Shown here piece after piece: positions 5,177 through 24,500 of a stretch of 45,112 nt of DNA. The notes below the pieces were generated by a model. It saw only the letters and a program-made list of their open reading frames with translations. It did not search any database and had not been told where the DNA came from. The position numbers were made by a program, and so were the translations under genes. Each line of letters starts with the position of its first letter. Position 1 is the stretch's first letter. Origin of the DNA: a virus; the IMG/VR virus record IMGVR_UViG_3300027708_000119, positions 1-45,112 of that record. One strand, 5' to 3'.

Positions 5177-5211
5177 ATCACCTCAAAATCCGAAGAAAGG
5201 AAGGGCAGCAG

Positions 5212-5228
5212 GGGGGTCGGCATCCCCC
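5212..5228. other. G/C hairpin in the primase leader
   Basis: GGGGG (5212-5216) and CCCCC (5224-5228) flank a 7-nt loop in the only sizeable gap of this operon, just before the primase start. The run of T follows on the plus strand, where no gene is read, so it is not a convincing terminator for the leftward message. It could fold in the mRNA leader and affect primase expression. Confidence 0.3.
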
Positions 5229-5263
5229 TTTTCGTTCCGTCAAACTAGCTGCCCCGGGGTAAA

Positions 5264-5488
5264 CTACTTTATAAGTTTCTCGATCTGTGCAACCGCCGTT
5301 TTATGTGGCATAGTTGATCCGATAAACCAGTTGTAGATTGTCATGCGGGATACTTCAAACATCTTTGCAATCTCTATAACTGTAATATCGTTAGCAATAC
5401 AATACTTACCTAGCTTCACTCCAATATGTTTAGAGTCGGCAGTTTTGTTTGCTTTTACAAGACGATAGCTATAGCCTCTTAGACTCAT
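5264..5488 (-). CDS. Small helix-turn-helix DNA-binding protein
   Basis: 74 residues. The C-terminal half reads as a helix-turn-helix: ITVIEIAKMFEVSRMTIYNW (about 35-54) has the small residue, turn and hydrophobic pattern of XRE/Cro-like or transposase-type HTH domains. It overlaps the upstream gene through an ATGA junction, so it is translated with the replication genes. It could be a regulator acting on the repeated palindromes at 14-24 kb or on the divergent control region; that link is inference. It could equally be a replication accessory protein. Confidence 0.6.
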   Translation of the reverse strand: MSLRGYSYRLVKANKTADSKHIGVKLGKYCIANDITVIEIAKMFEVSRMTIYNWFIGSTMPHKTAVAQIEKLIK

Positions 5489-13924: not shown

Positions 13925-14239
13925 TCAGCAGCGTCCGTCGTCATCATCGTCAAGCGGATCAAAATAAGATTCAAAGAAAGAAATATTTTCTTCATTCGCA
14001 ACAAACGCATGACCCCCCGCAGTCATTATGTTTTTTAGTTCTCGTTGTTGTAGTGCGGTAGGTTTGTTGTCGCCAGCTTTACATTCGATAGCAACGAACT
14101 GCCCACGAAAACACGCTATAATATCAGGCACACCTGAGCGACCATAGCCGTGCGTAGCGGGAAAGAAGTAATAGACACTATGCTTCTTTAGTATCTTAAC
14201 TATCTTATCTTTAACTTTAGATTCGGGTGTTGTAGCCAT
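13925..14239 (-). CDS. VRR-NUC / PD-(D/E)XK nuclease
   Basis: 104 residues beginning MATTPESKVKDK. The nuclease core is GVPDIIACFRGQFVAIECKAG (about 37-57), giving D in PD and E-x-K in IECK, preceded by an HGYGRSG loop. This is the VRR-NUC pattern of small phage structure-specific nucleases, possibly acting on branched DNA. The ATG lies about 7 nt after a TATACT box, so if that is the promoter the message is nearly leaderless. The C-terminus is a run of Asp. Confidence 0.85.
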   Translation of the reverse strand: MATTPESKVKDKIVKILKKHSVYYFFPATHGYGRSGVPDIIACFRGQFVAIECKAGDNKPTALQQRELKNIMTAGGHAFVANEENISFFESYFDPLDDDDDGRC

Positions 14240-14267: not shown

Positions 14268-14302
14268 ATGCAATAAATATTTATAGGGATAAACCCGAGG
14301 GT

Positions 14303-14332
14303 GGACAAACTTAGGTCTAGCTAAGAATGTCC
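14303..14332. repeat. 30-bp interrupted palindrome, copy 1 (A-type)
   Basis: Arms GGACAAACTTAG and CTAAGAATGTCC around a 6-nt spacer GTCTAG. Identical to copy 5. It lies 64 nt upstream of the VRR-NUC start, beyond the promoter remnant, next to a terminator. Confidence 0.9.
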
Positions 14333-14334
14333 AA

Positions 14335-14358
14335 TAAAAAAGCCACCCAAAGGTGGCT
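14335..14358 (-). terminator. Leftward rho-independent terminator
   Basis: AGCCACC (14341-14347) and GGTGGCT (14352-14358) with a CAAA loop. The A run at 14335-14340 is the U tract on the minus strand. It ends the transcript carrying the 15396 and 16299 genes. Confidence 0.8.
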
Positions 14359-14360
14359 TA

Positions 14361-14523
14361 GTAATGCTAAGGAGATTGAATATGAACACATATTCCTAGG
14401 TTAAGCAGATTACGCCCTAGTGCGTTAATGTCCTTACTGCAACCTTATCACATCTGCCATATGGTTTTGGTTAGGCTCACGAAAGGAACATTGTATGAAA
14501 CAATGTTAACTGTATTATACTAG
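14361..14523. other. Intergenic stretch without a recognised gene
   Basis: It holds an 8-bp inverted repeat AACATTGT/ACAATGTT (14487-14507) and, on the plus strand, two very short frames each behind a ribosome-like site: 5 codons from 14382 (AAGGAG upstream) and 4 codons from 14495 (AAGGA upstream). No tRNA fold or longer frame was seen. Confidence 0.5.
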
Positions 14524-15396
14524 CTATTGAACTACATAGCAATAATCATCGTTGAACTTACATCCAATAGTCATAATGGGTTCGCCGTGACTTAAAACTT
14601 TAAACATAGCGTATTTAGTTTGTATGTTATCAGGCAAGTCGGTATATGACCCATACTTTGTTACCGCATCTGTTGCAAAGTCATACACACTTAACCCACC
14701 CATAGGGTTTGTCTTGATACCATAGCCTATACCTGATTTAACCATATGACGCAGAGCAGAAATATGTTCAAACTGTTCACACTTTTTATCATGTGCGTCT
14801 AGGTTTTTAATGCTAATCGGGCGGACAGGCATCATGGCATACTTGTCCCCACGCAGTCTTGCTTTATATGCTTCCATAGCATAGAACGCTAATTCAGAGT
14901 TCTGGTCAAATTCCCAACGAATAGTATTTTCTCCCTGACTATGGTGCGAGTTTATGTTTTCTGAAATTTGATTCTTTATCTGGGTTTTGAGTTCATCATC
15001 TGCTCTAGCAACGAATGATTGTTTCACAGCACGAAGAGCAACCTTGATATCAGCACTCGTCGTGGTATTCCGCCCACCCCTAAACTTTACGATACGAAAG
15101 CTATTGACGAAGTATGCCTTCTCGGTAGAGCCGTTCCTGTATCTGTCAGTTATACCAATCTCACCTAACTTCTCGCCATTCTCGTATACTTTAATAGCAT
15201 AAATTTCGGGGCGGGTTTCAATTTCATTCGTTTCTTTATTTCGGTAGTGGTAATTCATTACGCATTTGTCCGTTACAATAAACTCGCAAGTCGGCTTTGC
15301 CATAGCGACCTTAATCAAGAACTCCTCTAGGTTAGGGGTGTACTCAACAGTATGTCGCCACTCGGCTTTTACTTTATCTTTATTAACTGCAATCAT
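14524..15396 (-). CDS. Unknown phage protein (290 aa)
   Basis: A mixed alpha/beta protein of 290 residues, starting MIAVNKDK. Features: a basic segment KFRGGRNTTTSADIKVALRAVKQSF (about 104-128, quoted in part: RGGRNTTTSADIK), which could bind nucleic acid, and a C-terminal beta-rich region. No family was recognised. It is the last gene of the unit starting at element copy 2, following the DUF3150-like gene by 9 bp, so it is probably part of the MoxR/VWA-associated set. Confidence 0.6.
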   Translation of the reverse strand: MIAVNKDKVKAEWRHTVEYTPNLEEFLIKVAMAKPTCEFIVTDKCVMNYHYRNKETNEIETRPEIYAIKVYENGEKLGEIGITDRYRNGSTEKAYFVNSFRIVKFRGGRNTTTSADIKVALRAVKQSFVARADDELKTQIKNQISENINSHHSQGENTIRWEFDQNSELAFYAMEAYKARLRGDKYAMMPVRPISIKNLDAHDKKCEQFEHISALRHMVKSGIGYGIKTNPMGGLSVYDFATDAVTKYGSYTDLPDNIQTKYAMFKVLSHGEPIMTIGCKFNDDYCYVVQ

Positions 15397-15405
15397 AACT
15401 TCTCC

Positions 15406-16299
15406 TTAAAATGTAAACTTGGACAAAATGTCGTCGATCTTCTGCTTAACTGCTACTCTAGCAATGTGGTTTTCTCGTAGGTCGTCGGCATCGTGATTCA
15501 TAATAGCCGTTGCCAATTCTCTGCGTGCTAACTCCATATTAGAATCGCCTGTGAGATTAAAGTGTTTCAGGAGATCTACTAACTCCACAGCATTCTCTAC
15601 TAAGGAGTCTCTAAATATGCGGGACTTATAAGACTTGCTACCATCTTCCTCGTCGATTACATCAACAGTCAGTCGCTCACTCATACGCATAAGGCAATCG
15701 TGCAATCTATCCCACGCATCTTTCATTGCATTGTTAAGCCTGTCGGTGTATGCCTTCTCACAGTTAGCCATCAGTTCAGCCTTAGCCTCTTCGCCAATAT
15801 CAATCCTAAAGTCCCCCGCCATAGGGACAGGCAAGTAGTTGACCGAGAACTTAAACTTTTTAGCAATGGTGTCGGCTTCGGGATACTCGGTGCGGTCAAA
15901 CAAATCACCTAACTGAAAAGCTGCGGCACTTACTAGGTTAGGGTAAGCTATGATGAACTTGTCCACCAATGCCTGATAGTTAGTCTCAAGCGTCGTAAGG
16001 TTCTGCTTATAGGTCATGAAGTTCCCCATTGGCAGTAGTCGTAGCCCGTTGTCAGACCAAGGTAATGTTTGAGAAAGATGCCATGCCCTTGCGTTTGCCG
16101 CATACTTTGTTATGGTATCTAAGAACCCTGTGCCTGCTAATAAGTTCTTGTTATAGTTACCCGCCCTAGTCTTTGTGCCTTTACCCACATCAACTTCGGT
16201 TGATACTTTCTTATCCAATTTTCTAGCAGTCCATGAACTGATAGATAGCTCTACTAACATAGCTGATGATGCGATTGAAATACTATTATCTTGTTGCAT
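15406..16299 (-). CDS. DUF3150-like protein of the MoxR/VWA cluster
   Basis: 297 residues. The N-terminal SISSWTARKLDKKVSTEV and the later KYAANARAWHLSQTLPW resemble DUF3150 proteins (phage and plasmid proteins encoded beside CobS/MoxR-like ATPases and CobT/VWA proteins). The long helical middle (about 95-245) may form a coiled-coil platform. Position two genes after the VWA gene supports this reading. It starts 20 nt after element copy 2, with AAAGGA before the ATG. Confidence 0.6.
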   Translation of the reverse strand: MQQDNSISIASSAMLVELSISSWTARKLDKKVSTEVDVGKGTKTRAGNYNKNLLAGTGFLDTITKYAANARAWHLSQTLPWSDNGLRLLPMGNFMTYKQNLTTLETNYQALVDKFIIAYPNLVSAAAFQLGDLFDRTEYPEADTIAKKFKFSVNYLPVPMAGDFRIDIGEEAKAELMANCEKAYTDRLNNAMKDAWDRLHDCLMRMSERLTVDVIDEEDGSKSYKSRIFRDSLVENAVELVDLLKHFNLTGDSNMELARRELATAIMNHDADDLRENHIARVAVKQKIDDILSKFTF

Positions 16300-16319
16300 A
16301 TAATTTCCTTTATAGTGTT

Positions 16320-16349
16320 GGACAAACTTAGGCGAACCTAAGAATGTCC
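16320..16349. repeat. 30-bp interrupted palindrome, copy 2 (A-type)
   Basis: GGACAAACTTAG, spacer GCGAAC, CTAAGAATGTCC. In minus-strand RNA the centre becomes CUUAGG-UUCG-CCUAAG, a stable UUCG tetraloop. It lies 20 nt before the ATG at 16299. Confidence 0.9.
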
Positions 16350-16355
16350 ATTGAT

Positions 16356-16655
16356 TTAATTCTCAAAAAAGTTTAAGCCTTTGGCACAAGCTATTGCCTC
16401 AGCTTTGGTTAAATAATCCATTACTGCACTTGATTCATACTTCTGTCTTTCTTCGTTCCAATACTGTGGTGCGTTGCTTCTTCCTACTGCTTTGTGCTGA
16501 TAAACTGCTTTGTAATCAAATTGGTTGAGCGAATACCTATGCCCAACATGAACCTTAATCACGCACCAATTCCTAGCATAGGGGAGATCTTTAGCGTGTT
16601 TGCCTTCGTTTTCCCCCGCCTTGCGTTGCCACCAAGGTTTCTTCTCACTCCACAT
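16356..16655 (-). CDS. Unknown small basic aromatic protein
   Basis: 99 residues rich in Trp, Tyr, His and Lys (MWSEKKPWWQRK at the start). It overlaps the end of the metallopeptidase-VWA gene by 11 bp, so it is co-translated with it. The TKAEAIACAKGLNFF end looks like a helix. No family was recognised. Confidence 0.6.
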   Translation of the reverse strand: MWSEKKPWWQRKAGENEGKHAKDLPYARNWCVIKVHVGHRYSLNQFDYKAVYQHKAVGRSNAPQYWNEERQKYESSAVMDYLTKAEAIACAKGLNFFEN

Positions 16656-17829
16656 GAACTACTTTACCTACTACTGAACTGCCATTGAAGTGACTATTGC
16701 CTTTGATACACCACATGACAGGCACACCCACATTACCCCAGTTAGATATATCTGAATTGATATAGCCGTCGGTCAACATGATGACGCACTCAGGTGCGAG
16801 GTTTTCCTTTTGCATAAACTTAGGCACGCAGTCAGGGTCAGTTCCGCCACCCCCTGCAGGCTTAGTCGATTCTGTAACAGAGCATAGGTCATTACCAAGA
16901 TAGGTTTCGTGGTTCGCCACTCGTGTATCCCAATACAATAAGTCTAGCTTCTCGGGATTAACTTCGTCGCAAATAGATTTAACTTCACCTAAGAACTGTG
17001 CAAGTTCCTCCCCACCGATAGAGCCTGATGTATCTATGCCTACTAATATAGAACCAACCTTCTCGTCATAAGTTGATGGCATGACAATATCCATACCAAT
17101 GTATCGCTTATGCAACCGACGCCAAGTTGTTTGGTCTTTGCCTTTAGTAGTGGTCTTAACAAAATCACGCAGGGCTTCTTTCCAATCTACCTTCGGTGTA
17201 AGTAAGTCTTGCATTTCTCTTGATACATCACCGCCCATCTTACCCGCAAGAATTGCCCCTTGTCGCAGGGCTTTCTCAATCTCATTAACGACTTCTTCTT
17301 TCTCGGCTTCACTTGCGTTCTCCCAATCATGTTCGTCGAATCCTTGACCGCCATCACCACCCCCGCCACCGCCGTGCTCTTGTTCTAGCAAACGGAATAC
17401 TTCGGCTGAGTCCATGCCACGATACTTCTCATCTATCAAGCCCATGACATTTCCCTCTGCATCCATCGGCATCTCAACATCATAGCCATTGGGGTCATAG
17501 TCACGGATTTGTAGATTGATAACATAATCACAAGCGGCATTTGCTAACTGTGCGTTCTTCTTATGCAAGCTTTGCCATACAACTAGGTGACGATAAGCCT
17601 TGTGCATAGTTTCATGCAGTATTAGAAAAGCAAGTGCTTTGTCGTTCAAACTATCTACAAACTTGCGACCATAGATAACATCAAGACCATTTGTTTTAGC
17701 AGTCGGTGTCGTCTCATCTACTGTGACTTTGCCAACCATAAACAATCCCGAGAACAAACAAAAGTTCTTATGCTTCATGAGTTGCACATGGGTGCGTTCA
17801 ATGCGTTGTTCTGCTGATAACTTCGCCAT
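16645..17829 (-). CDS. Metallopeptidase-like/VWA protein (DUF2201-type)
   Basis: 394 residues. N-terminal zinc-peptidase motif HETMH (H72, E73, H76). A Gly-rich linker (about 152-163) precedes a C-terminal von Willebrand A domain with a full MIDAS: DTSGS (D266, S268, S270), GGT (T330) and TDG (D354). This HExxH plus VWA architecture is that of DUF2201-type proteins, which pair with MoxR AAA+ ATPases. The ATPase gene lies one small gene upstream. Likely role: metal-dependent binding partner that selects a target for remodelling; the target, phage or host, is unknown. Confidence 0.85.
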   Translation of the reverse strand: MAKLSAEQRIERTHVQLMKHKNFCLFSGLFMVGKVTVDETTPTAKTNGLDVIYGRKFVDSLNDKALAFLILHETMHKAYRHLVVWQSLHKKNAQLANAACDYVINLQIRDYDPNGYDVEMPMDAEGNVMGLIDEKYRGMDSAEVFRLLEQEHGGGGGGDGGQGFDEHDWENASEAEKEEVVNEIEKALRQGAILAGKMGGDVSREMQDLLTPKVDWKEALRDFVKTTTKGKDQTTWRRLHKRYIGMDIVMPSTYDEKVGSILVGIDTSGSIGGEELAQFLGEVKSICDEVNPEKLDLLYWDTRVANHETYLGNDLCSVTESTKPAGGGGTDPDCVPKFMQKENLAPECVIMLTDGYINSDISNWGNVGVPVMWCIKGNSHFNGSSVVGKVVHVE

Positions 17830-18061
17830 CTTCTTCTTCCTTTTCTAGTTTATTATTACTACCTTCATACGATTCAACTGCTTGACTAAACAGTCGGACT
17901 AATTCAATCGGTGTCATCTTTGCTTGCTCGATTGCCGTTGATACCAACATACTAACTAGCACGGACAGGACTACCCCTAACTCGATATTGGTTTCGGTAA
18001 ATATATCTCCGACCTTATCTTTAAGGGATTCCGCTTGATTTAATAATTCTTCATGTGTCAT
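17798..18061 (-). CDS. Small protein between MoxR and VWA genes
   Basis: 87 residues: an acidic N-terminal helix, a hydrophobic middle (ELGVVLSVLVSMLVSTAIEQ, about 27-46) that could be a membrane helix or a buried core helix, and an acidic tail. It lies between ATPase and VWA genes and overlaps the VWA start by 32 bp, so it probably belongs to the same complex. Function unknown. Confidence 0.6.
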   Translation of the reverse strand: MTHEELLNQAESLKDKVGDIFTETNIELGVVLSVLVSMLVSTAIEQAKMTPIELVRLFSQAVESYEGSNNKLEKEEEDGEVISRTTH

Positions 18062-18069
18062 ATAGTTCC

Positions 18070-19164
18070 TTAGAATAGGTATTGATTAGTACGCATCCAG
18101 TCTGCAAACGAGGTGCTTGTCAAGAATAATTTTTTCTTCTCGTCATTCTTCATGCCTGTCAAACAGAATACAGATTGCAATTCTTTAGGTGTCCGCTTCA
18201 GATACTCAAAGAACTTACCGATTGTTTCTCTATCCACACGCTGAACCGCAGAGAAAGCTAACAAGCACAAAGCCGCAGGACTATTTGGCACATTGGCAGT
18301 TGAAGGATTCTTAACTATCTCAGCCCAACTTGGTAGCGAGTCGGCGACTTCAACATATGCCATCAAATCTCTAGCTGCGGGTGCACCGATTGTTCCCTCT
18401 AACGCACAAATGGTTGTATTTACCGAGATACCTGCTCGAGCCTTAAGAATATTACTTGCTCTAGCAAGGGAACGAGGACTAACAAAAGACTTCTGTGCTT
18501 CCTTTGGGTTAAAGATATACTTGTTACCCGCTTGTGCTGAATCAAGATACGATGCCAAGCAATGCGGTGTTTCTTTTACCCATGCCAAAATCTCAGGGGC
18601 AATATCATTATCAACTGCCCATGCACCCCATGAGTCAGCATCAATCGAGCCGTCAGGATTAAAGCCTGCGTGAGGTTTTTTAACATTCATAACAATGAGT
18701 CGGTTGCGTGAGTGGGATTTCATTGTGTCGCCTACTCCGTCGCCTGTGTAGTTACCTGCCGTTACGACTATCGTTTTCTCGTGCAATGGGATACCCATAA
18801 TCATGCGTGGTTCATTAAGCATTGGGTGTAGCATATTCTGAACTGCTTGATGACCCTTAGTAAACTCGTCGATAAAGATAACCAATGGTTCGTTAAGATG
18901 AAAACCCCATTGCTCGTTCGGATACATACGAGTTGTCTTGGTGCTATGGTCAGGAATTGGAACACCGAGTTCGCCTAGTTCAATGTTTGGTGCATCAATA
19001 TAAATACCCTTGAACCCTGTGCGACGCACTAAGTTCTTATACATTGAAGTTTTGCCGACCCCCGGTTCACCAATAAGATGACATGTTCCGTTAGCACCGA
19101 GTGCGAGGATTTGATTTTCTGCTTCGATAAGAGTTGCAGACTTATTTAAAAATACTTCAGACAT
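18070..19164 (-). CDS. MoxR/CobS-like AAA+ ATPase
   Basis: 364 residues from MSEVFLNKS; AAAGG sits 8 nt upstream of this ATG, and an upstream in-frame ATG would lie in the element. Walker A GEPGVGKTS (32-40, K38), Walker B VIFIDE (D99, E100), sensor region TIVVTAGNYTG (about 135-145) and an arginine-rich NRL region follow, as in MoxR/CobS-type ATPases. These proteins remodel partners together with VWA proteins. It starts 22 nt after element copy 3 and begins the module ATPase, small protein, VWA protein. Confidence 0.9.
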   Translation of the reverse strand: MSEVFLNKSATLIEAENQILALGANGTCHLIGEPGVGKTSMYKNLVRRTGFKGIYIDAPNIELGELGVPIPDHSTKTTRMYPNEQWGFHLNEPLVIFIDEFTKGHQAVQNMLHPMLNEPRMIMGIPLHEKTIVVTAGNYTGDGVGDTMKSHSRNRLIVMNVKKPHAGFNPDGSIDADSWGAWAVDNDIAPEILAWVKETPHCLASYLDSAQAGNKYIFNPKEAQKSFVSPRSLARASNILKARAGISVNTTICALEGTIGAPAARDLMAYVEVADSLPSWAEIVKNPSTANVPNSPAALCLLAFSAVQRVDRETIGKFFEYLKRTPKELQSVFCLTGMKNDEKKKLFLTSTSFADWMRTNQYLF

Positions 19165-19185
19165 GGTAATACCTTTCATGATGGT

Positions 19186-19215
19186 GGACATTCTTAGGTG
19201 TTGCTAAGTTTGTCC
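19186..19215. repeat. 30-bp interrupted palindrome, copy 3 (T-type)
   Basis: GGACATTCTTAG, spacer GTGTTG, CTAAGTTTGTCC; identical to copy 6 and in opposite orientation to copies 1, 2, 5 and 7. It lies 21 nt before the MoxR-like start. Confidence 0.9.
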
Positions 19216-19229
19216 GTTGGTTTAACTGC

Positions 19230-20144
19230 TTAATAAAAATACTTCTCGTTGCGGTCATAGAAAGCTTTGCCTATCTCAACAGGCTCGGATTCAAAGATTT
19301 GTTCCTTAAACTGATACTTCAATACTTCATCAAACGACTTCTTGAACTGCTCAGATGTGCATGAGTTCCCCCAATAGTTAATAGACTTAATCATTACTGA
19401 TACTAGAGTATAGGCTAGGGTTAAATCACCAGATTGCTCAAATTGAGATACCCTAAGCAAAAAGTTAGTCCTGTTTTTTTCTACTTCTTTTAAGTCAACC
19501 CATCTACCCCAAACAAGTCTATGCCTATCTGTGCCACCCATAATAGTTCTAGCATCTTCCTCGCTATACTTAAAAGCATCTTGGGCAATCTTGAGCATAC
19601 TCGTGCCATACTCAATGAACTTAGCGTAGCGTTTGCGTAGTGCGTTCATTTCTTTCCGCTTAACCCGCCTACGATATTCTTGAATGGGGTTCTCGACTGC
19701 ACTATTCTCGGTGTTGATAATTAACTCTTGGTCAGCACTCTGAGGAATAAAGTAAGACTTGCCACTCCCATTTTGGAAATACCATTTGCCGTTATAAGAC
19801 TCGATGACACCCACCCCCCTGTTCAAGGTATAGTTGACGACAGTCTGAACAATAACCCCATGCCACCGCCCAATCTTTACTGATACTGTGCCATCAGGTT
19901 TCCACTCGACCACATCTCTACCATATACTTGAGCAGAGTATGTTTCTTGCCATTGCCCTAGCACACCATCATCAACGACCCGCATATTTTTGTTGATCGT
20001 ATAGCCGTTATAGCGTCGGTTTTGACCAAGCGGGCGACATTCTTTTGCCCGACCTCGGATTGGAGTTGTGCTATCGAACTTAGCTTTTGCTTCAGCATAA
20101 GTGCTTATGGTTTTAAGTCCTGCTGAATTACCGAATCCCCACAT
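19230..20144 (-). CDS. Unknown phage protein (304 aa)
   Basis: It starts at MWGFGNSAG, with GGAG 9 nt upstream; an upstream TTG in the same frame is inside the preceding gene. The N-terminal half is beta-rich with many Gly, Tyr and Trp. The centre has a basic helix (EYRRRVKRKEMNALRKRYAK, about 160-179), and the C-terminal half is helical. No known family was recognised. It ends 14 bp before element copy 3, at the end of its gene block. Confidence 0.6.
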   Translation of the reverse strand: MWGFGNSAGLKTISTYAEAKAKFDSTTPIRGRAKECRPLGQNRRYNGYTINKNMRVVDDGVLGQWQETYSAQVYGRDVVEWKPDGTVSVKIGRWHGVIVQTVVNYTLNRGVGVIESYNGKWYFQNGSGKSYFIPQSADQELIINTENSAVENPIQEYRRRVKRKEMNALRKRYAKFIEYGTSMLKIAQDAFKYSEEDARTIMGGTDRHRLVWGRWVDLKEVEKNRTNFLLRVSQFEQSGDLTLAYTLVSVMIKSINYWGNSCTSEQFKKSFDEVLKYQFKEQIFESEPVEIGKAFYDRNEKYFY

Positions 20145-20146
20145 AA

Positions 20147-20362
20147 TTAAAATCTCCAATCAAAAATAAAACAAGCCACGATAAAAATCCCACCACCAAC
20201 TAGCCCTACATAAACAAAGCCTAGAAATGCCTCAGCCAAAAACTCTAGCGTTTCTTTAGCATCAGACTTATAGCGGGTTATTGATGTGGCATAGGTTGCG
20301 TTGCGTGTTGCTTCATCCCATGTGCGTGGGGTAGGTCTTAGATTTTTCTCAAGCGAATTCAT
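20147..20362 (-). CDS. Small single-pass membrane protein
   Basis: 71 residues from MNSLEKNLR, where AGGAGG sits 6 nt upstream. A hydrophobic segment, FLGFVYVGLVGGGIFIVACF (about 46-65), followed by DWRF, predicts one transmembrane helix with a long cytoplasmic N-terminus. It could alter the host envelope early in infection. It overlaps its upstream neighbour by 14 bp. Confidence 0.65.
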   Translation of the reverse strand: MNSLEKNLRPTPRTWDEATRNATYATSITRYKSDAKETLEFLAEAFLGFVYVGLVGGGIFIVACFIFDWRF

Positions 20363-20726
20363 TGCCGTCCTCCTCATCTTCGGTAAATTTGTGGTTGAAG
20401 TCGGTGTTGGCATCTAGCACATCATATTTAAATGCTTCTGCCATACGGCTATACACCGCACGCATTTCATCAAAGGTTTCGCCACCCGCAGTTGATTTGC
20501 AGTAACCACATGGCTCGTTTTTGTCGTTGTAATACACTTCAGAGATTTCATAGTAATGCTCAACGACTTCTTGCCCCTCATGGGTATATCTATATGTTTC
20601 TTTAACAACACGATTGTTCCAATGCATATTTGCTTTCCTTTCTTGTTCATACTGTTGTTCTTTTTCCATCAATGCCCAAGCTTCATCTTCCTCGGGGGTA
20701 TAGTCTGCTAAAGTCCATGTTGTCAT
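20349..20726 (-). CDS. Unknown acidic, Tyr-rich protein
   Basis: 125 residues from MTTWTLADY, an ATGA junction with the preceding gene. A CGYC motif (about 71-74) resembles a redox or zinc knuckle, but only two Cys are seen. The C-terminus is acidic (FTEDEEDGNEFA). Element copy 4 lies 22 nt upstream, inside the end of the preceding gene. Confidence 0.6.
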   Translation of the reverse strand: MTTWTLADYTPEEDEAWALMEKEQQYEQERKANMHWNNRVVKETYRYTHEGQEVVEHYYEISEVYYNDKNEPCGYCKSTAGGETFDEMRAVYSRMAEAFKYDVLDANTDFNHKFTEDEEDGNEFA

Positions 20727-20911
20727 TTGCCACACTCTCTTTCATGTTGGACATTCTTAGGTTCAGCTAAGTTTGTCTTGGTTAATTTTCTAAGCTCTTC
20801 CCTTGTAAACCAAACTAATGCTTGAATCGAGGTCTTCGTAGTTTTACTGATTAGTGCCACACCAAGAGTCTGTATTGCTTTTTCTATTACTACGAGTTCT
20901 TCATCAGTCAT
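20723..20911 (-). CDS. Small helical protein whose C-terminus is encoded by element copy 4
   Basis: 62 residues. The helical N-terminal part (MTDEELVVIEKAIQTLG) looks genuine. The last ~17 residues (TNLAEPKNVQHERECGK) are translated through the 30-bp palindrome at 20749-20778 and the ribosome site of the next gene. The element may have inserted into, or been recruited as, the gene's 3' end. Confidence 0.6.
   Translation of the reverse strand: MTDEELVVIEKAIQTLGVALISKTTKTSIQALVWFTREELRKLTKTNLAEPKNVQHERECGK
20749..20778. repeat. 30-bp interrupted palindrome, copy 4 (T-type)
   Basis: GGACATTCTTAG, spacer GTTCAG, CTAAGTTTGTCT (the last base differs from the consensus C). It is the only copy inside a reading frame, 22 nt before the ATG at 20726. 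Confidence 0.9.
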
Positions 20912-21132
20912 CTAGTTTCCTTTAGGTCTAGTAACATATTGATTGCATGGTCGAGGTCTTCCCCATAGATACTGCGTAGGTCTGTGATTACCCTAGCCAT
21001 TTCTTTGCGGTCTTGTTGAGTGCCACCACCACCTCGGATTTCCCAAAACAATTCCAATACCTTGTCTTGGTCTTTCTCATCAGTAATAAACTGCGACAGT
21101 TCGTAATGCAAGTCTTTCATTTTGCTCATCAC
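20908..21132 (-). CDS. Small acidic helical protein, unknown function
   Basis: 74 residues: DEKDQDKVLELFWEIRGGGG and a helical remainder ending MLLDLKETR. ATGA junctions on both sides place it firmly in the operon. A second ATG one codon in is an equally good start. Confidence 0.6.
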   Translation of the reverse strand: MMSKMKDLHYELSQFITDEKDQDKVLELFWEIRGGGGTQQDRKEMARVITDLRSIYGEDLDHAINMLLDLKETR

Positions 21133-21335
21133 TTCTCTCCTTGTAATGCTTTGAACTTCGCTTTTGCGAGGGCAAGCGAGGTATAGCCCTGTGCTACTTC
21201 TTCATAATGTGCTAAAGAAAAGGGTTCATCGGGGTGCTCAGTTGCTATTTGCACCAAAGTCTTGAGTCGCCCTTCCATTTCTTCTATCGTGTCGAGCAAC
21301 TCGCTAATGCGTTGCCCCTTGTAATATTCCGTCAT
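21129..21335 (-). CDS. Small helical protein, unknown function
   Basis: 68 residues from MTEYYKGQR, chosen because it follows the stop of the upstream gene by one base. The segment ISELLDTIEEMEGRLKTLV is a short coiled coil. No motif suggests an enzyme. Confidence 0.6.
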   Translation of the reverse strand: MTEYYKGQRISELLDTIEEMEGRLKTLVQIATEHPDEPFSLAHYEEVAQGYTSLALAKAKFKALQGEK

Positions 21336-21336
21336 C

Positions 21337-21522
21337 TCAGTCCCCCGTTGTATTAAAGTATCTACCACTAAAACCTTCCATGAACCCCGCTTGGAACGCT
21401 TCTCTCATCTGAATTTCTTGCATACCAGTCAAGCCTTGCCCCCAAACCTTGTCCTTGCGGTATTTCGCCCACTCGTTGCTCATGATCCGAGCCATTGTTA
21501 AATACCCATCAGGTTCAGTCAT
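21337..21522 (-). CDS. Small protein, unknown function
   Basis: 61 residues from MTEPDGYLT, with AAGGGAG 5 nt upstream and an ATGA junction with the preceding small gene. The middle holds WAKYRKDKVWGQGLTG and a helical QAGFMEGFS. Function unknown. Confidence 0.6.
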   Translation of the reverse strand: MTEPDGYLTMARIMSNEWAKYRKDKVWGQGLTGMQEIQMREAFQAGFMEGFSGRYFNTTGD

Positions 21523-21695
21523 ACAAACTCCCTTATCCAATCAATATAAACTTCGTTAAACTCAAACCACCTAGCATGACGCTTGCGGTCAGGCACTTCA
21601 ATGGGGTAATTAACTAGCAGTCGCCCACCATTCCACCTTACTAGAGAATAGAACTCAGGCTTATTTGGTTTTCGATACAGTTTTATTACTAACAT
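21519..21695 (-). CDS. Small basic protein (58 aa), unknown function
   Basis: The peptide begins MLVIKLYRKPNK and ends YIDWIREFV. It closes an otherwise unexplained gap: ATGA junction downstream, 35-bp overlap upstream, and AGGGG before the ATG. Arg/Lys/Trp-rich, probably a small beta-alpha domain. Confidence 0.7.
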   Translation of the reverse strand: MLVIKLYRKPNKPEFYSLVRWNGGRLLVNYPIEVPDRKRHARWFEFNEVYIDWIREFV

Positions 21696-21858
21696 GTCGC
21701 CCCCCTAAAAATAACAAATGTAAAAACGGATTTCTTTCTGCTACTAACGCACGCTTTTCTGTTATGGTGAGTTCGGGGTTTTTTAATAGGTGAGTCAGAC
21801 TGTTGGCATTGCGTTGCTCGATCAGGCTTTCCCTGTTTCTAGATTTATAGGTTCTCAT
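21661..21858 (-). CDS. Small basic protein, unknown function
   Basis: 65 residues. LTITEKRALVAERNPFLHLLF (30-50, first 20 given here in part: LTITEKRALVAERNP) looks like a helix-loop-helix. Basic N- and C-termini. It begins in an ATGA junction with the upstream gene. Confidence 0.6.
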   Translation of the reverse strand: MRTYKSRNRESLIEQRNANSLTHLLKNPELTITEKRALVAERNPFLHLLFLGGRHVSNKTVSKTK

Positions 21859-22013
21859 TCTTTTCTTTCTAAGTCTATATCCACACCATCGTCGGTTATG
21901 TAAATCCCTGCAATCCCAACTGTGTAGTTGTCGTAAGTGCTAACAAACCGCACTTCCTTCTCAGGGTCTATTAGTTTTTCTTGCAATGCTTCTATTAGGT
22001 GTTTAACTTTCAT
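21855..22013 (-). CDS. Small acidic protein (52 aa), unknown function
   Basis: It begins MKVKHLIEALQEKL and ends DLERKE, with ATGA junctions at both ends and AAAGGA 4 nt before the ATG. The pattern helix then strands (VRFVSTYDNYTVGIAGIYIT) suggests a compact domain of a type common in phage early operons (HLI..L..LDPDKEV-like). Confidence 0.75.
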   Translation of the reverse strand: MKVKHLIEALQEKLIDPEKEVRFVSTYDNYTVGIAGIYITDDGVDIDLERKE

Positions 22014-22261
22014 GTTGTCCTTTTTGGGTTGAGTTGTTTGAGCATATCGGGGTTGTAAACTAGGTAATAGTTTGATTTGTTCATGGGGGCTACTGTGAAC
22101 TTCCTATTCTTTGCTATCGTGTCGCCACACTTGATACAGGTCAGCGGTTTGCTTTGCTCGATTAAGAACTTGGCACGTTTGCTATATACATAGACTTGGC
22201 AGTCCTTGGCGATATTGGCAATACAAAAGTAATTATGAGATTCGTGGTTTGCTCTGCTCAC
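22010..22261 (-). CDS. First gene of the early chain, possible zinc knuckle (GTG start)
   Basis: 83 residues from GTG at 22261, with AAAGGA 6 nt upstream. C-I-K-C at about 42-45 (TCIKCGD), with Cys13 and Cys21 nearer the N-terminus, could bind zinc. It is the first gene after the strong promoter at 22346-22374 and element copy 5, so it should be among the earliest made proteins. Function unknown. Confidence 0.6.
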   Translation of the reverse strand: MSRANHESHNYFCIANIAKDCQVYVYSKRAKFLIEQSKPLTCIKCGDTIAKNRKFTVAPMNKSNYYLVYNPDMLKQLNPKRTT

Positions 22262-22277
22262 TTTGATTCCTTTCGTT

Positions 22278-22307
22278 GGACAAACTTAGGTCTAGCTAAG
22301 AATGTCC
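22278..22307. repeat. 30-bp interrupted palindrome, copy 5 (A-type)
   Basis: GGACAAACTTAG, spacer GTCTAG, CTAAGAATGTCC, identical to copy 1. It lies in the leader, 38 bp downstream of the -10 box and 16 nt before the GTG start at 22261. Confidence 0.9.
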
Positions 22308-22345
22308 TGATTGATGTTGATAGATAAACTCCCACTTACCCATAC

Positions 22346-22374
22346 AGTATAACACAGAATCAAGACAATGTCAA
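22346..22374 (-). promoter_or_regulatory. Strong sigma70-like early promoter
   Basis: Minus strand TTGACA (22369-22374), 17-bp spacer, TATACT (22346-22351), with TGTGT directly before the -10. The start point is predicted near 22339. It drives the 22261-to-19230 gene chain. Confidence 0.8.
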
Positions 22375-22475
22375 GTGTTTGTCCTTGTAAGCCCTTGATT
22401 TGATTGGGAATTCTCTAGGGACATTTCTTTTGCGTCGCTCGCCATTTCGAGCCAGTTTCCTATGCTTTGGGCAAT

Positions 22476-22524
22476 AAAAAACCCCGCATATAGCGGGGTC
22501 AGGGTTAGTCGGGGTTTCCCCCGA
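22476..22524 (-). terminator. Tandem hairpins and terminator after paralogue A
   Basis: In the transcript order: hairpin TCGGGG/CCCCGA (22509-22524), then a terminator with ACCCCGC (22481-22487) and GCGGGGT (22493-22499) and a U tract from 22476-22480. The same two-hairpin order occurs after paralogue B. Confidence 0.85.
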
Positions 22525-22527
22525 AAG

Positions 22528-23124
22528 TTAGATGATGCCCAACTGTGTGCAGTATGTATGCAAGTCAAAATAAGATAAGTCTTTTGCCCATGCGTTTAAG
22601 TCTTTGATTAACTGCAAGCGTTGTGCTTCTGTTTCTTTTTCATCTTCTTTGCGAATAGAGTCAATGCGTTTTTGAATCTTGGTTGCTTCCTTCATCTTGG
22701 CAAGCGTAGGTGCTTTGAGCAAGTCTTTGGCTTTGTTCTCCAAATCCTCTACTGTCATGTGAGCAAAAAGAGCATCTTCTTTTGCCTTTTGTTCCGCCCG
22801 TTTTTCCGCCTTTTTAATGGAGTCGGCATCGTTTGACTTTGGCTTATCAATACCGAGTTTTTTGGAAAAAGTATTCCAACGAACATTTAAAGCATTTTCG
22901 GTAATATCAGGTTTAACTTCTAGGATTGCTTCTTGAAACAGTAAACGACCCATTTCGTATTGAGCATAGCTAGGGTTTAAACCGATGATGCGTTGATAAG
23001 TCAATACCGCTTCTTCTGCGGATTCGGTTGATTCAAAGAAGTTTACTGCACTTGCTTTGATGGATGCAGTTTGATTTTCGTCAAATGCGGATAACATTGC
23101 TTCGGTTTTAATAACAGTTTTCAT
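22528..23124 (-). CDS. Early coiled-coil protein, paralogue A
   Basis: 198 residues. The central part is a charged helix (DADSIKKAEKRAEQKAKED, about 96-114) followed by another helical stretch. Paralogue B at 23754 has the matching block NADSVKKAQKRAEAKAKLD and similar flanking text (WN.F...L / E.QKVQK), so the two arose by duplication. Each has its own upstream 30-bp element and two-hairpin terminator. Function unknown; strong early expression and high charge suggest a host-interacting or nucleic-acid-associated protein. The ATG is 28 nt after element copy 6. Confidence 0.7.
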   Translation of the reverse strand: MKTVIKTEAMLSAFDENQTASIKASAVNFFESTESAEEAVLTYQRIIGLNPSYAQYEMGRLLFQEAILEVKPDITENALNVRWNTFSKKLGIDKPKSNDADSIKKAEKRAEQKAKEDALFAHMTVEDLENKAKDLLKAPTLAKMKEATKIQKRIDSIRKEDEKETEAQRLQLIKDLNAWAKDLSYFDLHTYCTQLGII

Positions 23125-23152
23125 AATGCTTAGTTCCTATCGTTTAGGTTTT

Positions 23153-23182
23153 GGACATTCTTAGGTGTTGCTAAGTTTGTCC
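23153..23182. repeat. 30-bp interrupted palindrome, copy 6 (T-type)
   Basis: GGACATTCTTAG, spacer GTGTTG, CTAAGTTTGTCC, identical to copy 3. It is 38 bp downstream of the -10 box at 23221, the same distance as copy 5 from its promoter, although the element is inverted. Confidence 0.9.
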
Positions 23183-23220
23183 GTTGGTTTAAATAACTTC
23201 TACTACCACACTACAATCAC

Positions 23221-23249
23221 AGTATAACAGAGAATAGAATAGATGTCAA
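23221..23249 (-). promoter_or_regulatory. Strong sigma70-like early promoter for paralogue A
   Basis: Minus strand TTGACA (23244-23249), 17-bp spacer, TATACT (23221-23226), preceded by CTGT. The predicted start point near 23214 gives a ~90-nt leader containing element copy 6. Confidence 0.8.
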
Positions 23250-23256
23250 GCCCTTG

Positions 23257-23590
23257 TCCGAACATTATGGATTTGTTCGGGTATTGTTCTGCTTTGTTCC
23301 GTTTTGTTCTGTGCGTTGGAACATTGCAAAACCCTTATAGAATAAGGTCTAGCGGTCTATTATATGTATAATGTTATATTGTTATATTGTTATATTTTAT
23401 ATATATCGAAGTTAGAAAAATATATAGATTTATCATAATGTGCAATGCACTATGCGAAGGGGGTCTTTGAAAAACAAAATTCAGAAAAGTAGAAAATCGG
23501 GTGGAACATTAGAACAGTCCGAACATTGTAATGAAATCAAGGACTTAGCAGGAACAGTACAAAGAACATTACGAACAAATCGGAACAAAA
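23257..23590. other. Candidate replication origin or large operator
   Basis: A gene-free region with short repeats arranged around an AT-rich core. Left arm: TGTTC at 23274, 23285, 23295 and 23305 (10-11 bp apart). Right arm: GAACA at 23504, 23512, 23521, 23552, 23564, 23573 and 23583 (8-12 bp apart within groups). Extra GAACA copies are at 23260 and 23319. The core (about 23350-23435) has three adjacent GTTATATT units (23373-23396) and long A/T runs, then a near-palindrome GTGCAATGCAC (23440-23450). Inverted, helically phased binding sites flanking an easily melted core are typical of origins bound by an initiator. A repressor-looping region is the alternative. Confidence 0.5.
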
Positions 23591-23604
23591 CAAAATTGAG
23601 CTTT

Positions 23605-23634
23605 GGACAAACTTAGTTCTGCCTAAGAATGTCC
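23605..23634. repeat. 30-bp interrupted palindrome, copy 7 (A-type)
   Basis: GGACAAACTTAG, spacer TTCTGC, CTAAGAATGTCC. Unlike most other copies it has no start codon close downstream; it borders the origin-like region and follows the terminator of paralogue B. Confidence 0.9.
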
Positions 23635-23693
23635 GAGCCGAGCAGGGCTTATGCGTCGCTTACAACCAGTTCCCTTAAAAAAATTTAGTTAAT

Positions 23694-23748
23694 AAAAAAC
23701 CCAGCATAAAGCTGGGCTGGATAAAACAAGCTGGGGTTTCCCCCCAGC
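23694..23748 (-). terminator. Tandem hairpins and terminator after paralogue B
   Basis: Hairpin GCTGGGG/CCCCAGC (23730-23748), then terminator CCCAGC (23700-23705)/GCTGGG (23711-23716) with the U tract encoded at 23694-23699. The order matches that after paralogue A. Confidence 0.85.
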
Positions 23749-23753
23749 CCTTA

Positions 23754-24362
23754 CTACATTACTGCGACTTCGTGAGTACCATGGAGAATACAGAGCACAC
23801 TATCCAATACTCTATGATCGTGAGTATCACCGACTAGCTTTTTAATTTCATTTTGCTTAGCCTTGATCTCTTCCATCACTTCCTTCATTCCATCTTTACG
23901 CTTAGCCTCGATTACTTTTTGCACTTTCTGAGCCTCGGCTAAGTTTTTAGCGGTATGGTTTTTAGTAAGGCTTTCGACCATAGCTAAGAGCTCTTCCATT
24001 GGTTGCTCTTTCATCTTATCTAGCTTAGCTTTAGCCTCAGCACGCTTTTGGGCTTTCTTTACGCTATCAGCATTGTCAGTCTTAGCTGGTTTTACGATAT
24101 CGTATTGATCCTTCAAAGCATTGGTAAAAGCATTCCAAGCTACTGATACTTTATTGTCTTTAGCATCACAACCCTTAGCCATGGCGTAACCCTCTTTCCA
24201 AGCCTCAGATCCTTCAGTCCACAAGTCATAGCTGATATCGCTATCTACTACAACCTGATTGTAAAACGATAATAAAGCCTCTTCCATTTGACCATCAATA
24301 TCAGCGCATGCTGAGCCAATAGAGATGAAACCCGCTTTTTGTAATTCAGACATAATTGTCAT
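23754..24362 (-). CDS. Early coiled-coil protein, paralogue B
   Basis: 202 residues, the first leftward gene after the control region. The start at 24362 has AAGGAG 7 nt upstream. The N-terminal third is acidic; the central block NADSVKKAQKRAEAKAKLD (about 98-116) matches paralogue A. The C-terminal part differs (ends HGTHEVAVM). Being first and having its own terminator, it is probably expressed immediately after entry. Function unknown. Confidence 0.7.
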   Translation of the reverse strand: MTIMSELQKAGFISIGSACADIDGQMEEALLSFYNQVVVDSDISYDLWTEGSEAWKEGYAMAKGCDAKDNKVSVAWNAFTNALKDQYDIVKPAKTDNADSVKKAQKRAEAKAKLDKMKEQPMEELLAMVESLTKNHTAKNLAEAQKVQKVIEAKRKDGMKEVMEEIKAKQNEIKKLVGDTHDHRVLDSVLCILHGTHEVAVM

Positions 24363-24470
24363 AGTAATGCTCCTTCGTTTAGTTAATGTAGCCGTGATTG
24401 ACTACACCTTGAATATAATGCTTTAGCATAGAATAACTCTTGACCTAGATCAAGAAAACGAAAAGTATTT

Positions 24471-24500
24471 AGACATTCTTAGGTAGAGCTCAGATTGTCC
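24471..24500. repeat. 30-bp interrupted palindrome, copy 8 (degenerate)
   Basis: AGACATTCTTAG, spacer GTAGAG, CTCAGATTGTCC: a decayed T-type copy with changes in both arms. It lies 108 nt upstream of paralogue B. Confidence 0.75.

Follow-up and report, generated by a model that had tools for sequence, protein, structure and literature searches.

Candidate operators of a phage-private network: an interrupted dyad repeated at early gene heads of uncultured phages, with a spelling that differs between relatives

Introduction

The operators of P1 c1 and of the lambdoid phages, including 434, are phage-private sites that are read by a phage repressor and underlie dialect-specific immunity. Those of P1 c1 are asymmetric 17-mers scattered in many copies, whereas the lambdoid phages have short palindromes that are limited to one or two control regions. 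Two inverted arms of about 11–13 bp around a spacer of 6–8 bp are found in dif, the site of XerCD, and in lox, and the two halves of dif differ. Here we describe a 30-bp interrupted dyad that is present in eight copies in the early region of the virus record IMGVR_UViG_3300027708_000119 of IMG/VR, the analysed stretch of which (positions 1 to 45,112, i.e., 45,112 nt) is called the window below. The likeness of this element to the P1 c1 and lambdoid sites would be that of phage-private operators, but it is neither asymmetric in the manner of the former nor confined like the latter. Its layout is similar to that of dif and lox, but here no recombinase was found and no shuffling of modules was seen.

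The closest described systems are known from mycobacteriophages. The stoperators of cluster A, which are read by the repressor (L5 gp71 or that of TipsytheTRex), occur as many operator copies in the short intergenic spaces of the early region and at promoters. They are asymmetric 13-bp sites bound by a monomer and placed mostly in one orientation to transcription, their sequence is specific to the phage group and correlates with the repressor, and they have been proposed to stop both initiation and elongation (PMC9283540, PMC6550527). The window element is likewise repeated in the short spaces between early genes, but it is a dyad of about 30 bp and both orientations are used, with four copies reading AA and four reading TT on the coding strand. 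The candidate binders proposed here, the paralogous proteins A and B, also differ from the stoperator repressor in having no helix-turn-helix (HTH) by sequence, and neither of the two integrase families searched was found. A gp71-type repressor with an N-terminal HTH was not seen among the window proteins scanned, which were not all open reading frames of a perhaps incomplete record.

The extended start-associated sequences (ESAS) of cluster K are imperfect 17-bp inverted repeats with spacers of 4–13 bp, located at a subset of genes directly upstream of the start-associated sequence (SAS), a separate 13-bp repeat GGGATAGGAGCCC; they show subcluster-specific base changes and their function has not been established (PMC3203893, PMC12699233). 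The window element, too, is an imperfect inverted repeat directly 5' of start codons. In contrast to ESAS, its spacing is fixed within nearly every phage, its whole arms differ between relatives together with a co-varying protein candidate, and no SAS-like partner repeat was noticed beside the sites (GGGATAGGAGCCC itself was not searched for in the window). By analogy, the element would act like the stoperators and resembles ESAS, while differing in defining features of both. Our preferred reading, to which we give a probability of roughly 55%, is that the eight copies are DNA operators of a phage-private, self-regulated network that would be read by A and B, presumably with a roadblock to transcription.

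Results and Discussion

Eight copies of the dyad in the window

The window was scanned for the pattern GGACANNCTTAGN6CTAAGNNTGTCC with up to 3 mismatches, and shuffled sequence served as the control. Exactly eight sites, S1 to S8, were found at 14303, 16320, 19186, 20749, 22278, 23153, 23605, and 24471 (mismatches in this order 0, 0, 0, 1, 0, 0, 0, and 2) and none elsewhere, as an earlier note on this DNA had reported, while the shuffles gave a chance expectation of 0.01. Each site consists of two half-sites of about 12 bp (GGACA-WW-CTTAG), inverted around a 6-bp spacer, with AA in one half and TT in the other. The arms, the spacers, the AA..AA and TT..TT versions and the identity of copies 1 and 5 and of copies 3 and 6 including the spacer were all confirmed on re-reading. 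That the two middle pairs lack complementarity is true of seven copies; copy 8 has one complementary pair (T.A) there.

The sites and the features mentioned with them lie on the minus strand. Five copies are indeed situated 16–28 nt 5' of a start codon: S2 (16320–16349) 20 nt before the ATG at 16299, S3 (19186–19215) 21 nt before the ATG of the AAA ATPase gene at 19164, S4 (20749–20778) inside the end of gene 20723–20911 and 22 nt before the ATG at 20726, S5 (22278–22307) 16 nt before the GTG at 22261, and S6 (23153–23182) 28 nt before the ATG of gene B. S5 and S6 stand in the leaders of good sigma70-like promoters, both TTGACA-17-TATACT (22346–22374 and 23221–23249, respectively), about 40 nt downstream of them. 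Copies 1, 7, and 8 are not placed before a start codon; the first two follow terminators, and copies 1 and 8 are upstream of promoter-like sequences. S1 (14303–14332) lies between a terminator-like hairpin directly before it (14340–14359) and the promoter-like sequence of an Hjc/VRR-type nuclease gene (13925–14239). S7 (23605–23634) is located past two terminator-like hairpins (23698–23750) that separate it from the end of gene A. S8 (24471–24500), a degenerate copy of a kind that relatives have too, lies 108 nt 5' of gene A, upstream of a promoter-like TTGATC-N17-TATGCT. S2–S6 are in leaders and S1, S7, and S8 are outside clear leaders, although read-through may reach these three.

About 10 nt of upstream flank (TTAAACCAAC) are common to copies 3 and 6, and a copying event is therefore possible for this pair; copies 1 and 5 have no flank in common. 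The identical pairs and the partly shared flank would fit recent duplications, or a mobile palindrome of the repetitive extragenic (REP) type, without any regulatory role. However, the flanks otherwise differ, the copies are placed at gene heads, and, as described below, orthologous positions are held across phages while the sequence changes, and we consider this reading very improbable.

Relatives with the same and with other spellings

Exact scans of IMG/VR yielded five other contigs with the CTTAG pattern, three of which (G001, G003, and G005) have seven copies each, at gene heads as in the window. Within these phages the arms are nearly constant and the spacers vary freely. The AA/TT middle flips its orientation between orthologous copies; for instance, the coding strand of S1 reads TT in the window and AA in G001 and G003. 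The middle is thus asymmetric, as the earlier note had claimed, but the site is not a strict signal of transcription direction. In bacterial genomes one isolated match to the pattern was encountered (in a metagenome-assembled genome of Ruminococcaceae), which is compatible with chance, and comparing the DNA of the region with the phage collection gave no match.

For a wider comparison, the AAA ATPase and the VWA/metallopeptidase protein were used to find homologues, and about 60 contigs of uncultured phages, apparently from fresh water, were gathered in this way. A dyad of like build was present upstream of the AAA gene in 32 out of 32 loci, the best dyad having 9–11 of 12 pairs and lying 21–42 nt before the ATG, whereas 12% of random 90-nt stretches reach 9 pairs. 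When the distance from ACA to TGT was allowed to vary from 14 to 25, most phages showed 4–10 copies with near-identical arms at orthologous gene heads. In nearly every phage the copies share one distance (19, 20, or 21) and the spacer sequence varies; in the phages spelled CCAC and TCGA some copies have a spacing that is different by a single base. Shuffled sequence gave no such multi-copy dyads. Between phages, the outer end nACA...TGTn is mostly retained and the rest of the spelling changes completely, giving at least a dozen dialects: CTTAG, TGAC, AGTG, GTTA/GTTAC, CGAC (with two spacings), CCA, TCGA, TCAAG, CGGA, ATAAG, CTAAC, CCAC, and ACTT. Dialects and some weak sites were assigned by consensus searches that tolerated up to three mismatches, and a few of the matches are doubtful, e.g., L085 7736. 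These results bear out the suggestion of a conserved, phage-specific operator insofar as the element is found at the same gene heads in relatives, is uniform within each phage and differs in sequence between phages.

Five distant relatives (L057, L059, L060, L067, and L069) have 4–7 copies of further dyads, and shuffles gave none. In the fetched stretches of the cultured terminase relatives HTVC027P, DSL-LC04, and 023Pt_psg01, no comparable multi-copy dyads were detected (at most 3 members, in one of them).

The non-complementary middle is significant in the CTTAG, TGAC, AGTG, CGAC, and CCAC phages, and its asymmetry is real. An obligatory internal mismatch was ruled out by fully palindromic copies in G028 (GTTA; several copies) and G035 (ATAAG).

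The 12-6-12 layout with asymmetric halves and the flips of orientation between phages would also suit sites at which site-specific recombination or cassette exchange rearranges modules of early genes (dif-, lox-, or attC-like, with inverted arms on either side of a 6-bp spacer). However, neither the tyrosine (PF00589) nor the serine (PF00239) recombinase family was found in the 20 records searched, four of which are 60–67 kb long, although records may be fragments. Moreover, homologous genes flank the sites in relatives and some sites lie inside genes. Recombinase sites were rejected on these grounds as a highly unlikely explanation.

DNA site or RNA hairpin

The other proposal of the earlier note was a hairpin in mRNA leaders (5 bp, a 2x2 internal loop, 5 bp, and a loop), which a phage protein or ribonuclease would bind to set the translation or stability of early mRNAs. 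The position of S2–S6 ahead of start codons agrees with this, as does the good folding of single copies as RNA. The arms change on both sides between phages, the middle is mostly unpaired (significantly so in five dialects), and A.A is more frequent than T.T on the coding strand, although the last bias may partly come from A-rich coding strands. A stem in RNA should, however, favour G.U pairs. Among the arm mismatches on the coding strand we counted 26 G.T and 31 A.C, i.e., no such preference, whereas in a structured RNA that is encoded nearby and conserved in these phages, taken as the control, the ratio of G.U-type to A.C-type was 13:1 with the unreliable pair 131/138 omitted (Fisher P 0.002 against the arms). 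This favours DNA.

Three further features favour DNA as well. The length of the spacer is fixed and its sequence is free. Copies are found between terminator and promoter, as S1-type copies in 19 loci (the window and 18 relatives), and inside coding sequence, namely in the A gene of CGAC phages and in the VWA gene of L057 and L060. The fully paired copies of G028 and G035 indicate that an internal loop is not required. In addition, the AA and UU versions swap at orthologous copies. Two observations weigh against a DNA site: the middle positions show a weak excess of G.T (40:25, P 0.04), and the predicted RNA folding of the sites is good, as for any dyad. On balance, the comparisons favour a protein–DNA site, and the leader hairpin appears unlikely.

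Paralogues A and B as candidate readers of the site

The early proteins of the window were tabulated against 25 relatives, and among them the paralogues A (23754–24362, 202 aa) and B (22528–23124, 198 aa), members of a fast-evolving, all-helical family, follow the dialect best. The phage G006 is nearer to the window than G001 is (identity of terminase 96 versus 85% and of the VWA protein 85 versus 79%), and G006 has another dialect and no A detectable by BLAST, whereas G001 has the dialect of the window and A and B at 53 and 65% identity, respectively. With profile searches, an A-type gene was detected in the corresponding position in every dialect, wherever the contig of the relative extends over the region, and some relatives have two copies. 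Altogether, 23 out of 23 dialect-assigned loci covering the place have an A/B-type gene, as do the distant L057 and L060.

When the comparison was limited to pairs of similar AAA conservation, the identity of A was at least 47% in pairs of the same dialect and at most 45% in other pairs, and that of B at least 64% and at most 40%, respectively. The partial correlation with dialect was 0.66 for A and 0.82 for B; for three neighbouring genes it was 0.53 (g19230, whose ranges overlap), 0.19, and 0.07. The phages compared are related and not independent, and the permutation tests correct for phylogeny only in part, a limit that weighs against A and B as readers. A and B adjoin S6–S8, but S1–S4, which are kilobases away among well-conserved genes, have switched dialect too; linkage alone is therefore no explanation for the tracking. 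In most loci a site lies 14–111 nt upstream of A or B or within the first 150 nt of the gene, and this placement suggests that A and B regulate themselves.

Two paralogues of the A/B type are present in the CTTAG, TGAC, AGTG, and GTTAC phages. A strict A+B heterodimer as the cause of the AA and TT halves was considered and was not decisive, as the CGAC, CCA, TCGA, and TCAAG phages have asymmetric sites and one detected copy. The HTH protein encoded at 5264–5488, which had been put forward as the binder, was rejected as the reader of dialects: phages of all dialects share a practically identical recognition helix (VSRMTxYxWF), and the protein does not diverge along the lines of dialect.

Several other points weigh against A and B. 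Both evolve fast in any case, and g19230 also correlates with dialect, with the overlap given above. The A genes of L088, L098, L100, L119, L120, and L121 have no well-matching site directly upstream, and no A/B match was found in the distant L059, L067, and L069, which have multi-copy dyads. Neither protein has relatives in Pfam, PHROG, or PDB or a recognised DNA-binding fold, and both are slightly acidic in the window. In addition, S7 is near neither a promoter nor a start codon. The structure of A was predicted to be all-helical with a predicted local distance difference test (pLDDT) score of 90, and a fold search with the whole of A and with its N-terminal part returned nothing significant. 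A/B-type proteins were not found in the fetched stretches of the three cultured terminase relatives named above, and a tblastn search of the phage collection with a single-copy relative of A gave none.

Part of this evidence would also suit the same DNA sites with another binder, of the phage or the host, A and B being merely fast-evolving; the sites might then serve genome organisation, such as partition, replication, or nucleoid-like binding. The lack of a known DNA-binding fold in A and B and the correlation of g19230 point in this direction, as does an AT-rich repeat region next to S7, which may be an origin. However, no other tested gene separates the dialects without overlap, the HTH helix is constant, and the sites stand at gene heads and are not clustered. 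We regard another binder as rather unlikely.

Proposed mode of action and its meaning

If the copies are indeed operators, A and B, as a homo- or heterodimer, would be the most likely binder of all copies, both at their own genes (S8 and S6, respectively) and at the heads of other early gene blocks. Once bound, the protein would stop RNA polymerase or modulate it, presumably as a roadblock in leaders and between genes at S2–S6 and through control close to the promoter at S1 and S8, so that the early gene blocks would be turned down together as A and B accumulate. The statistical co-variation of the sites with A and B is an observation, whereas the binding, the dimer and its stoichiometry, the direction of regulation, and the roadblock are what we infer. 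Such an early and self-limiting arrest of early transcription would be in keeping with a phage in which neither of the two searched integrase families was found, in records that may be incomplete.

A bolder possibility, to which we give somewhat less than even odds, is that A and B represent a new class of sequence-specific DNA-binding protein, with no known family or fold. Their rapid evolution would then have given rise to a dozen or more mutually private operator dialects within a single phage lineage with no sign of being temperate, all 4–10 sites of a phage switching together, and immunity-like specificity would be used for the temporal control of early genes and not for lysogeny. Should the pairing of A/B and site be true, these phages would constitute a natural library in which regulators of a family that has no known relatives are matched with their operators in a dozen or more pairs, with one site per gene block, and in which it could be tested directly how a phage alters the specificity of its regulator and all scattered sites together. 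For the kind of start-associated repeat seen in the cluster K mycobacteriophages, the comparison would supply a concrete way to tell DNA from RNA and a candidate for the binder.

Other observations in the region

Just upstream of S1, in all 19 of the 19 loci examined, lies a conserved candidate non-coding RNA of about 150–190 nt (14338–14514, minus strand, in the window) with a promoter-like sequence of its own (14542–14514) and a terminator. It has a closing helix GCAGATG...AATCTGC, and 10 of the 18 predicted pairs have changes on both sides; the region of the window had no Rfam match at the gathering threshold. Downstream of S1, in the window (14270–14300) and in most relatives, a small dyad AGGGnnnnnCCC(T) is followed by a TATAAAAATA-like sequence and then by the nuclease promoter, and a conserved protein, for example the HTH protein, may have its site in this stretch.

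Between S7 and S6, an AT-rich stretch (23240–23580) with repeated GTTC/GAAC words (AATGTTC, GAACAA) was noted as a possible replication origin. An FNR/ANR-box-like sequence TTGATCTAGGTCAA (24437–24450) overlaps the -35 element of the promoter-like sequence of gene A. The early region also encodes a MoxR-type AAA ATPase and its VWA/metallopeptidase partner (DUF2201), at 16645–17829 and 18070–19164, which are kept in relatives. Finally, directly 3' of the small HTH gene (5264–5488), an int-alpA RNA (RF02996, 49.7 bits) was identified at 5189–5255 on the minus strand.

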